A stretch of DNA of 33,826 bases. It comes from Rhodocyclaceae bacterium. Lineage in GTDB: Bacteria; Pseudomonadota; Gammaproteobacteria; Burkholderiales; Rhodocyclaceae. Below the pieces are notes generated by a model. It was not told the origin of the DNA. It saw only the letters and a program-made list of their open reading frames with translations, and did no database searches. Below are positions 1,978 to 33,777 of this stretch, piece after piece (the stretch's first letter is position 1; each line of letters starts with the position of its first letter). The stretch is taken from contig JANJVS010000125.1 of the NCBI GenBank assembly GCA_024709955.1, forward strand, positions 1 to 33,826, given 5' to 3'. The position numbers and the translations under genes were made by a program.

Positions 1978-4900
1978 ATGCAACCTGACCGCAGCAATCA
2001 ACTGCGCGAGCTCCTCGCTCGACGCATCCTCATTCTCGACGGCGCCATGGGCACCATGGTGCAGAAGCACGGCCTGGTCGAGGCCGACTATCGCGGCACG
2101 CGCTTCGCGGGGCATGGCAAGGACCTCAAGGGCAACAACGACCTGCTCTGCCTGACGCGGCCGGACGTCATCGGCGGCATCCACGCCGCCTATCTCGACG
2201 CCGGGGCCGATATCCTCGAAACCAACAGCTTCAACGCGACGCGCGTCTCCCAGGCCGAGTACGGTCTCGAAGCGATTGCCTTCGAACTCAATGTCGCGAG
2301 CGCGCGCCTGGCGCGCGAAGCCGCCGACAAATACTCGACGCCGGACAAGCCGCGCTTCGTCGCCGGCGTGCTTGGCCCCACTTCGCGCACCTGCTCGATC
2401 TCGCCGGACGTGAACGATCCGGGCGCGCGCAACATCACGTTCGATGCGCTGGTGGCCGACTACATGGAAGCGGCCAGGGGGCTGACCGAAGGCGGCGCCG
2501 ACATCCTGCTGGTCGAGACCATCTTCGACACGCTCAACGCCAAGGCCGCGCTCTACGCCATCGAAGCCTTCTTCGACGAAGCGGGACGGCGCTGGCCGGT
2601 CATGATCTCCGGCACCATCACCGACGCCTCGGGCCGCACGCTCTCGGGCCAGACCGCCGAGGCCTTCTGGAACTCGCTGCGCCACGCGCGGCCGCTGTCC
2701 TTCGGCCTCAACTGCGCCCTCGGCGCGAAGGAGCTGCGCCAGTACGTCGAGGAGATCGGCCGCGTCGCCGACTGCTGCGTCTCGGCGCACCCCAACGCCG
2801 GCCTGCCCAACGCCTTCGGCGGCTACGACGAAACGCCGCAGATGCTCGCCGCCGAACTGGCGCAGTGGGCGCGGGACGGCCTGCTCAACATCGCCGGCGG
2901 CTGCTGCGGCACCTCGCCCGACCACATCCGCGCGATCGCCGAAGCCCTGAAGGACATTCCTCCCCGCCGTCCCGCCAGCCCCGACTTTGCGTTGCGCCTG
3001 TCGGGTCTCGAACCCTGCAACATCGGCGCCGACTCGCTGTTCGTGAACGTCGGCGAGCGCACCAACGTCACCGGCTCGCGCGCCTTCGCGAAGATGATCC
3101 TCGAAGGCCGCCTCGACGACGCGCTGGCCGTGGCGCGCCAGCAGGTGGAGAGCGGCGCCCAGGTCGTCGACATCAACATGGACGAGGCGATGCTCGATTC
3201 GCGCGCGGCGATGGTGCGCTTCGCCAACCTGATCGCCAGCGAGCCGGACATCTCGCGCGTGCCGCTGATGTTCGACTCGTCGAAATGGGAGGTCATCGAG
3301 GCCGGCCTCAAATGCGCGCAGGGCAAGGGCATCGTCAACTCGATCTCGATGAAGGAAGGCGAGGCGAAGTTCCTCGAACAGGCGCGGATGGCGCGCCGCC
3401 TCGGCGCCGCCGTCATCGTCATGGCCTTCGACGAGCAGGGCCAGGCCGACACCTACCGACGCAAGATCGAGATCTGCAAGCGCGCCTACGACCTCCTGGT
3501 GGCCGACGGCTTCCCGGCCGAGGACATCGTCTTCGACCCCAACGTCTTCGCCATCGCCACGGGCATTCCCGAGCACGACAACTACGCGGTGGATTTCATC
3601 GAGGCCTGCCGCTGGATCAAGCAGAACCTGCCGCACGCCCACATCTCGGGCGGCATTTCCAACGTGAGCTTCAGCTTCCGCGGCAACGAGCCGGTGCGCG
3701 AGGCGATCCACACCGTCTTCCTCTACCACGCGATCCAGGCGGGGCTGACCATGGGCATCGTCAACGCCGGCCAGCTCGGCGTGTACGACCAGCTCGACCC
3801 GGTGCTGCGCGAGAAGGTCGAGGACGTGGTGCTCAACCGCAAAGTCGGCGCCGGCGACACGCTGGTGGAATTCGCGACCTCGGTGAAGGGCCAGGCCAAG
3901 GAGCAGGTGCAGGACCTCGCCTGGCGCGAGTGGCCGGTCGAGAAGCGCCTCGAACACGCGATGGTGCGCGGCATCACCGAATACGTCGTCGCCGACACCG
4001 AGGAATGCCGCGCCGCGCTCGCCGCCGCCGGCAAGCCTCCGCTGCACGTCATCGAGGGTCCGCTGATGGCCGGCATGAACGCGGTCGGCGACCTGTTCGG
4101 CGCGGGCAAGATGTTCCTGCCCCAGGTGGTCAAGTCGGCGCGCGTCATGAAGCAGGCCGTCGCCCACCTCGTGCCCTACATCGAGGAAGAGAAGCTGCGC
4201 ACCGGGGCGGCGGCGAAAGGGAAAATCGTGCTCGCCACCGTCAAGGGTGACGTGCACGACATCGGCAAGAACATCGTCGGCGTGGTGCTCGCCTGCAACG
4301 GCTACGAGATCGTCGACCTCGGCGTGATGGTCGCCGCCGACAAGATTCTCCACGCCGCCAAGGAACATAACGCGGACGCGGTCGGCCTCTCCGGCTTGAT
4401 CACGCCGTCGCTCGAAGAGATGAGCCACGTCGCCAGCGAGATGCAGCGCCAGGGCTTCGCGGCGCCGCTGCTGATCGGCGGCGCGACCACCAGCCGCGCC
4501 CATACCGCGATCAAGATCGCGCCGAACTACCAGGGGACGGTGGTGTATGTGCCGGACGCCTCGCGCGCCGTCGGCGTGGTCACCAAGCTGCTGTCGGACG
4601 ACCAGGCCGCCGGTTTCAAGGATGAGATCGCCGCCGACTACGCGAAGGTCCGCGCACAGCACGCGAGCAAGCAGGGCGTGAAGCTGCTGACGCTGGCGGA
4701 CGCGCGCGCCAACGCCGCGCAGCTGGACTACGCGCCCTTCCAGCCCCGTCGTCCCGGCATCCGCCCGTTGTGCAGGATCGATCTGGCCACCCTCGCCAAG
4801 TACATCGACTGGGGCCCCTTCTTCCAGACCTGGGATCTCGCCGGCCGCTATCCGCAGATTCTCGACGACGCCAGGGTCGGCGAACAGGCGCGCGCGGTGT

Positions 4901-5646
4901 TCGCCGACGCGCAGGCCATGCTGCAAAAGATCGTCGAGGAAAAGTGGCTCGTCGCCAACGCGGTGTTCGGACTGTTCCCGGCGAACCGCGTCGGCGACGA
5001 CATCGAAATCTATGCCGACGAAACCCGCGAACAGCCGTTGATGACTTGGCGCGGCTTGCGCCAACAACATGAGCGGCCGAGCGACCAGGCCAACCTCTGC
5101 CTCGCCGATTTCATCGCACCCAAGGGAACGCCGGATTACATCGGCGCCTTCGCCGTCACCGCCGGTCTCGGCATCGAGGCGAAGCTGCGGGAATTCGAGC
5201 AGCAGCACGACGACTACCACGCGATCATGCTCAAGTCGCTCGCCGACCGCCTCGCCGAGGCCGCCGCCGAATGGCTGCACGAGCGGGTGCGTATCGACGA
5301 CTGGGGTTACGCCCGCGACGCGGAGCACGGCAAGCTGAACCTCGACGACCTGATCGCCGAGAACTACCAGGGCATCCGCCCCGCGCCCGGCTACCCGGCC
5401 TGTCCCGACCACACCGTCAAGAAGGACTTGTTCGCCCTGCTCGACGCCCCGGCCAACGCCGGCATGGGCCTCACCGAGCATTTCGCCATGACGCCGGCCG
5501 CCTCGGTCGCGGGCTTCTATTTCGCCCATCCGCGGGCAAAATACTTCGCCATCACGAAAATCGGCCGCGACCAGCTTGAAGATTGGGCAAGACGCACCAA
5601 CTACCCGCTTCCAGAAGCCGAAAAATGGCTCGCCCCCCTGCTGTGA
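1978..5646 (+). CDS. metH: Cobalamin-dependent methionine synthase
   Basis: Transfers a methyl group from 5-methyltetrahydrofolate to homocysteine through cobalamin, making methionine and tetrahydrofolate in the cytoplasm. The frame is open from 1867, but starting at ATG 1978 gives 1222 aa, close to the 1227 aa of E. coli MetH, and begins just before [12 protein letters not shown]. The homocysteine domain (about 1-325) has the zinc ligands C246 (NCALG) and C309/C310 (GGCCGT). The folate domain starts with [15 protein letters not shown]. The cobalamin domain carries [11 protein letters not shown] with the axial His at 760. The C-terminal reactivation domain has the AdoMet motif [12 protein letters not shown]. 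All four modules are present and intact. The linker between the first two modules contains a copy of the dispersed repeat (2967-2988). The ribosome-binding site before 1978 is weak. Confidence 0.97.
2967..2988 (+). repeat. Dispersed repeat, copy inside metH
   Basis: The core differs from the consensus CCGTCCCGCCAGCGCCGAC by one base (G to C) and is followed by TTT. It is read in frame as RRPASPDF at about residues 330-337, in the linker between the homocysteine and folate modules, where E. coli MetH is not conserved. It could be an inserted repeat tolerated by a linker, or chance. Confidence 0.55.
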
Positions 5647-5666
5647 AACCCGATCAGGAGACGACG

Positions 5667-33750: not shown

Positions 33751-33751
33751 A

Positions 33752-33777
33752 TCACCGTCCCGCCAGAGCCGAGTTTG
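33752..33777 (+). repeat. Dispersed repeat copy after the cyclase gene
   Basis: The stop TAG is followed by A and then TCACCGTCCCGCCAGA, GCCGAG and TTTG, two changes in the core. Confidence 0.8.

Follow-up and report, generated by a model that had tools for sequence, protein, structure and literature searches.

A genome-wide 25-nt word in Rhodocyclales that may work like a DNA uptake sequence

The sequence analysed here (hereafter the window) is the complete 33,826-nt contig JANJVS010000125.1 of a Rhodocyclaceae bacterium, whose own genome is labelled G000. Copies of a dispersed element with a conserved unit of 25 nt, NN-CCGTCCCGCCAGCGCCGAC-TTTT (two leading bases, a 19-nt core and four T), lie along the window. 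With at most 3 mismatches to the core, 13 matches were found against a chance expectation of 0.21, and none of 100 shuffles reached 13. A first-pass annotation had listed twelve copies of a dispersed repeat, and eleven of these were recovered (core starts 2967, 6960, 17520, 17621, 17717, 19588 and 33755 on the plus strand, 11129, 20816, 25832 and 28493 on the minus strand). The twelfth, at 9089, had been described as eroded and was indeed absent from the matches with at most 3 mismatches. Two extra core matches at 21899 (plus strand) and 32895 (minus strand) lack the T-run and are probably due to chance.

Gene calls trained on Pfam-supported genes placed ten of the twelve copies between genes, the same number as previously annotated, and three of these ten reach a gene end with one or two of their bases. 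The remaining two copies are coding and on the strand of their gene: 2965–2989 (plus strand, 1 mismatch) inside metH, where the element encodes RRPASPDF, and 11125–11149 (minus strand, 1 mismatch) inside an epimerase-like gene (10328–11203), where it encodes HRLASADFF. The copy at 6958–6982 (plus strand, 3 mismatches) touches the stop codon of the minus-strand gene 6982–7314. The eroded copy (9089–9112, minus strand) lies at the cca stop codon. In relative L087, a copy with 1 mismatch immediately follows the cca stop at the corresponding position and in the same orientation, locus L258 of genome G012 (perhaps the same genome as L087) likewise has a copy at this site, and in other relatives a copy is found about 60 nt beyond it. 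After the stop of a PAS-GGDEF-EAL gene, three plus-strand copies at 17518–17542 (1 mismatch), 17619–17643 (3 mismatches) and 17715–17739 (exact core, 0 mismatches) form a composite, in which the second copy is flanked by two hairpin-bearing spacers of about 80 nt each (17543–17714, plus strand). A further plus-strand copy (19586–19610, 3 mismatches) is located between TerB-family and aminotransferase genes. Three minus-strand copies lie between minus-strand genes (20812–20836, 1 mismatch; 25828–25852, 3 mismatches; 28489–28513, 2 mismatches), and the last copy (33753–33777, plus strand, 2 mismatches) is situated just past the stop of a CHASE2-cyclase gene. The annotated lack of a palindrome holds for the three of the twelve copies that were folded, none of which folds better than the mean of its shuffles. 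No Rfam match over the gathering score was obtained in the window. Separately, it was observed that 20838–28475 is occupied by three successive large minus-strand genes mutually related by DNA repeats; no Pfam family matched a stretch of the first, and the last (25854–28475) is rich in RCC1 repeats.

In aligned copies, the flanks outside the 25-nt unit were nearly flat. A second genome, G002, displayed a weak signal downstream of the unit, reflecting inverted partners. The information content (Rseq) was 34.6 bits in G000 (n = 109) and 32.0 bits in G002 (n = 88), whereas roughly 13 bits (Rfreq) would be enough, both Rseq values being inflated because the copy sets were picked by similarity. According to PMC1626085, a consensus far stronger than that of regulatory sites is typical of uptake signal sequences (USS) or copying elements. 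The leading dinucleotide was CA in 89 of 109 copies of G000, TG in 70 of 88 copies of G002 and CG in five other genera (7/8 to 9/12), samples beyond G000 and G002 being small (6–17 copies). Among these smaller samples, TG precedes the core in G004, G013, G017 and G001 (7/10), CG in G007, G009 and G016 (4/6), and the leading bases are mixed in G003, G006 and G011. G016 additionally has the core variant CCGCCCCGCCAGCGCCGAGTTT, with changes at core positions 4 (T to C) and 19 (C to G), which was counted 240 times (at most 1 mismatch) in this genome versus at most 21 times in each of the other 18 genus genomes. The dialects are clade-specific, with a conserved inner core.

In the 3.51-Mb genome G000, 522 core copies were found (at most 2 mismatches; 265 forward, 257 reverse), whereas the reversed pattern, used as control, gave 0 forward and 2 reverse matches. 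This excess over background bears out the earlier proposal of a genome-wide element. At least 100 copies were present in 54 of 395 sampled genomes of the family (hereafter carriers), which belong to 6 of 68 genera. In the genus of the window, 18 of 19 genomes are carriers and one, G005, has no copy. In genus g2, 21 of 22 genomes are carriers and the remaining one (G277) has 22 copies, and in g9 (1 genome), g62 (1), g70 (4) and g88 (9) all sampled genomes are carriers. Below this threshold, 31 copies were counted in G064, 18 in G097 and at most 12 in the remaining family genomes; the highest count in other families of the order (24 genomes) was 6. Most relatives identified via the neighbouring cca gene came from records with the names Rhodocyclaceae, Rhodocyclales, Sulfuritalea or Sulfurisoma. 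At least one copy was found in 40 of 64 of these cca loci and the reversed control in none. G005 groups with the carrier G006 at 98/99 in a cca tree in which most of the genus is unresolved, and no substitute over-represented 10-mer was obvious in 292 kb sampled from G005.

In 200 kb sampled from two plasmid-like contigs of G002 (149 and 103 kb), 1 copy was found, whereas 400 kb of the main contig contained 40. The 20 proteins scanned on these contigs include conjugation, integrase, transposase and sliding-clamp families. Their lower G+C content (0.56–0.58 vs 0.63) explains part of the scarcity, because core sub-words are also rarer on them. Under-representation in mobile or foreign DNA was found in this one genome only. 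On the plasmid-like G002 contig C3 (L227–L231), genes for F-type conjugation, an integrase and a protein of the RAMP family were noted. An exact match was listed for 43 viral contigs.

Placement relative to genes was determined in G000 using 20 stretches (400 kb, all taken from contigs in which a copy had been located) and the window, and in 400 kb of G002. Gene calls for samples of other genomes were trained on G002. The 72 copies of the G000 sample comprise 44 intergenic and 25 coding copies and 3 at stretch edges; 44 of the 69 classified copies are thus intergenic, compared to about 9% of random 25-mers. G002 has 22 intergenic and 18 coding copies (13% intergenic expected). Convergent gaps are favoured (19/44 vs 14.5% expected in G000; 7/22 vs 7.7% in G002) and divergent gaps avoided (3/44 vs 27%; 2/22 vs 21.5%, the latter not significant), a pattern that fits tolerance. 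Gene-end distances of at most 20 nt account for 53–56%, against 41% and 28% at random. These two genomes thus show enrichment in intergenic DNA and close to stop codons. In the samples of other genomes most copies are coding: 48 of 69 among ten further members of the genus and 31 of 40 among five other genera. At the named cca loci, 48 of 88 copies are coding. Of all coding copies, 82 are on the strand of the gene and 88 on the opposite strand. As in uptake sequences, copies occur in coding and non-coding DNA and on both strands. A polarity along replichores, at first suggested by the listing of plus-strand copies, was dropped, since the 100 places listed of 227, all on the plus strand, are spread along the main G002 contig (C1) over 2.1 Mb.

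Where the element is present, MetH homologues have the sequence PRRPASADFxLR; most homologues lacking it have PRAIPxxExKLR, at equal length (PRRPASADF vs PRAIPQIEK). All 13 motif-less MetH homologues are gap-free at the element, and the same was found for all motif-less homologues at two more sites (36/36 at L095_2191, 32/32 at L089_1435). Codon identity at identical amino acids was 0.884 inside versus 0.595 outside the element in epimerase homologues with the motif (n = 27; 0 of 284 windows as high) and 0.890 versus 0.710 in metH homologues with the motif (n = 10; 71 of 1202 windows as high), a comparison in which selection by presence of the motif favours identity inside the element. Homologues lacking it showed no excess (0.414 inside vs 0.537 outside for the epimerase, 0.660 vs 0.713 for metH). 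In both genes, what is conserved seems to be the DNA word and not the peptide. Segments of about 90 residues were compared at 17 sites in 237 homologues, of which 68 had equal length, 77 were shorter and 92 longer. If the element had arisen by insertion of some 25 nt, motif-less homologues should be 8–9 residues shorter; such a deficit was found in 19 of 237, and all 19 concern a single variable loop of MetH, in which an insertion may have occurred.

Among the 109 G000 copies, 13 direct and 2 inverted pairs lie within 150 nt. Ten of the 13 direct pairs, including the copies at 17518–17739, enclose a related hairpin spacer of 51–86 nt, and the G000 sample contains spacers related to those at 17543–17714 at 8 further positions. 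In G002, 54-bp tandem arrays (L013, L015, L067) have a strong hairpin consisting of the element and an imperfect inverted partner, and a partial inverted partner is located downstream of 10 of 40 copies. Close pairs numbered 0 among 144 copies of the named relatives and 1 among 58 copies of other genera. These composites and hairpin arrays look like local derivatives.

We propose, with about an even chance of being right, that the element is a genome-wide self-recognition word working like a DNA uptake sequence (DUS). It resembles uptake sequences in being chromosome-wide, over-informative and dialect-forming, in using both strands and in being scarce on plasmid-like contigs. The sharp boundaries of the unit, its limitation to certain clades, the conservation at nucleotide level in two genes, the gap-free replacement of codons in metH, the low number of homologues shorter by 8–9 residues and the preference for convergent over divergent gaps also speak for this reading. 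It is a putative uptake-sequence-like self-tag, whose role in uptake, receptor and dynamics we infer. Of the options considered in the first-pass annotation, a genome-wide element with a protein-binding site is supported; the protein probably reads the element as double-stranded DNA. A surface or periplasmic DNA-binding protein of a type IV pilus or competence system would prefer double-stranded DNA with the 25-nt word, and by this preference DNA of close relatives would be taken up and recombined. Copies would arise largely by substitution and would be spread and held by biased recombination, which would let each lineage drift to its own dialect.

Competence genes were searched in genomes many of which are incomplete. 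In favour of the proposal, ComEC scored over the curated cut-off in 19 of 20 carriers and DprA in 18 of 20. Several results weigh against it. DprA did not reach the cut-off in the carriers G019 and G014, and ComEC and DprA were also detected in non-carriers, among them G005; their presence therefore does not follow that of the motif. Canonical ComEA (TIGR00426) was over cut-off in 0 of 20 carriers and present in 7 of 17 in-family non-carriers (Fisher p = 0.002, genomes not independent). No short open reading frame (ORF) with HHH_3 over cut-off was found in 14 carriers from six genera. Twelve of these matched only in an ORF of 620–1000 amino acids, which is presumably Tex, and two had no match; a weak match below cut-off was seen in a 234-amino-acid ORF on a plasmid-like contig of G002. 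Three of four tested non-carriers have a short ComEA-like ORF, the one without being G005. Pilins of the ComP_DUS family were present both in carriers and in non-carriers; the family therefore does not discriminate between them and was dropped as a receptor lead. A complete competence machinery was not found in the carriers, no ComEA and no short HHH_3 ORF being over cut-off. In the insertion test over all sites, 118 of 240 motif-less alignments were gap-free (51% gapped) and 10 of 22 sites mostly gap-free, 28 further sites having no motif-less homologue for comparison. A looser earlier count, with many sites repeated, gave 327 gap-free and 409 gapped of 736. The corresponding published test for USS gave gaps in 115 of 474 (PMC1626085). 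Orientation was judged on tandem gaps only, because convergent-gap copies count once each way; counts per adjoining stop (34:26, 16:11), biased toward evenness by convergent copies, were replaced by this count. In tandem gaps of five samples, 47 copies shared the strand of the gene that ends there and 30 had the opposite one (p = 0.07; orthologous copies are not independent); G000 and G002 alone gave 24:11 (p = 0.04). Inverted pairs, with the 2 found in G000, are rare, and the word of 25 nt is long compared to the 9–12 nt of DUS and USS (10–12 nt in Neisseriaceae).

The missing ComEA lowers the probability of an uptake function but does not exclude it, because another periplasmic receptor exists: ComH of Helicobacter pylori is a different one (PMC6877725). 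Because no ComEA or short HHH_3 protein over cut-off was found in carriers, membership in the DUS/USS class is not claimed. What is claimed, at evenly balanced confidence, is that the word works like these sequences. With somewhat less than even credence, it could represent a third lineage of self-recognition words, longer than 9–12 nt and without canonical ComEA, implying either ComEA-independent uptake or intracellular self-recognition.

The intracellular possibility can also be stated in its own right. A chromosome-tagging protein would bind the 25-nt double-stranded word chromosome-wide in nucleoid organisation, segregation, recombination or self/non-self marking in defence, and plasmids without the word would not be its target. 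Equal strand counts (265:257), the spread of the listed plus-strand copies along C1 of G002, the near absence from two plasmid-like contigs, the lack of ComEA in carriers and the conservation at DNA level agree with such a protein. Against it, roughly 13 bits would be enough to locate the site, and a consensus of about 33 bits is unusual if each locus is selected separately. Dialect shifts would need concerted replacement at hundreds of loci, which is hard without a recombination drive, and the listed plus-strand copies of G002 show no replichore polarity, unlike Chi or KOPS (FtsK orienting polar sequences). We regard this explanation as possible but unlikely. A strong consensus could also result from copying, if the element were a small dispersed repeat, similar to repetitive extragenic palindromes (REP) or miniature inverted-repeat transposable elements (MITE), with most copies being solo ends. 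The G000 composites (13 of 15 close pairs direct, 10 of the 13 with a hairpin spacer), the 54-bp arrays of G002, the gaps in about half of the motif-less alignments and one MetH loop in which homologues are often 8–13 residues shorter point in this direction. Against it, codons are replaced without gaps at metH, L095_2191 and L089_1435, the composites are local, the element has no palindrome and is nearly absent from plasmid-like contigs. Moreover, only 5 of 19 genus genomes yielded the Y1/RAYT transposase family (Y1_Tnp; REP-associated tyrosine transposase); the 14 without a match include G000, G002 and G017, which disfavours REP/RAYT mobility. The idea that the repeat is the tip of a mobile element is disfavoured by the gap-free codon replacements and by this distribution of the transposase family, even though secondary repeats containing the motif exist, and we consider spread by copying improbable.

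A transcript 3'-end element, such as a terminator or processing site, would account for the intergenic enrichment in G000 (44/69) and G002 (22/40), the favoured convergent gaps, the short gene-end distances, the T-run after the core and the lean in tandem gaps. This lean is weak, unlike the one-sidedness of a terminator or processing site, many copies are coding on both strands (82:88), the three folded window copies show no hairpin, and the window has no Rfam match. A function at gene ends, as initially suggested, was consequently not supported, and we rate this explanation as highly improbable.

REP and bacterial interspersed mosaic elements (BIME) with RAYT transposases are short, dispersed and often near gene ends. 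The element shares these properties and forms local hairpin arrays in G002, but its core is non-palindromic, it often lies in genes, and a search for the transposase family was negative in the majority of genus genomes. Chi and KOPS are genome-wide words of about 8 nt that are read by DNA machinery and strand-polar along replichores. The present element is likewise a genome-wide short word, but has 25 nt and no polarity on the plus strand among the listed G002 copies. It differs from intrinsic terminators by the lack of a G+C hairpin before the U run (three window copies folded) and of a single orientation at gene ends. As in Pasteurellaceae USS, a core with strong consensus adjoins an AT tract; those have a 9-nt core with AT-rich flanks spaced downstream, whereas here the sequence is different, the core has 19 nt and the T tract is attached. 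For USS, evidence for origin by substitution is given in PMC1626085, and the insertion test is mixed here.

The Neisseriaceae DUS resemble the element in having hundreds of copies in genic and intergenic DNA within a limited clade, in concerted dialects that are set apart by a single base or a few (PMC3630211), and in their scarcity in foreign DNA and conservation within the core genome (PMC2397512). No sequence relation to DUS was noticed, although no search was made for one. Copies per genome are fewer than the counts cited for DUS species (943 to 4549). Inverted pairs acting as terminators are frequent, though not universal, in DUS and USS, and the element does not mainly occur in inverted pairs. 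No ComP-type receptor was identified and no canonical ComEA found in the carriers studied here. PMC12616744 describes only two bacterial families, Neisseriaceae and Pasteurellaceae, with enriched self-DNA words, and our search, limited to one literature library, found no paper on uptake sequences in Rhodocyclales or Rhodocyclaceae, nor on the motif letters. On present sequence evidence, the Rhodocyclales word may be a third example of uptake signals. If so, it would constitute a third self-DNA word system, in betaproteobacteria, with several dialects, a wordless genus member (G005) and no canonical ComEA, and would offer a comparative test of how and why such words evolve as well as a way to find the receptor by phylogenetic profiling.

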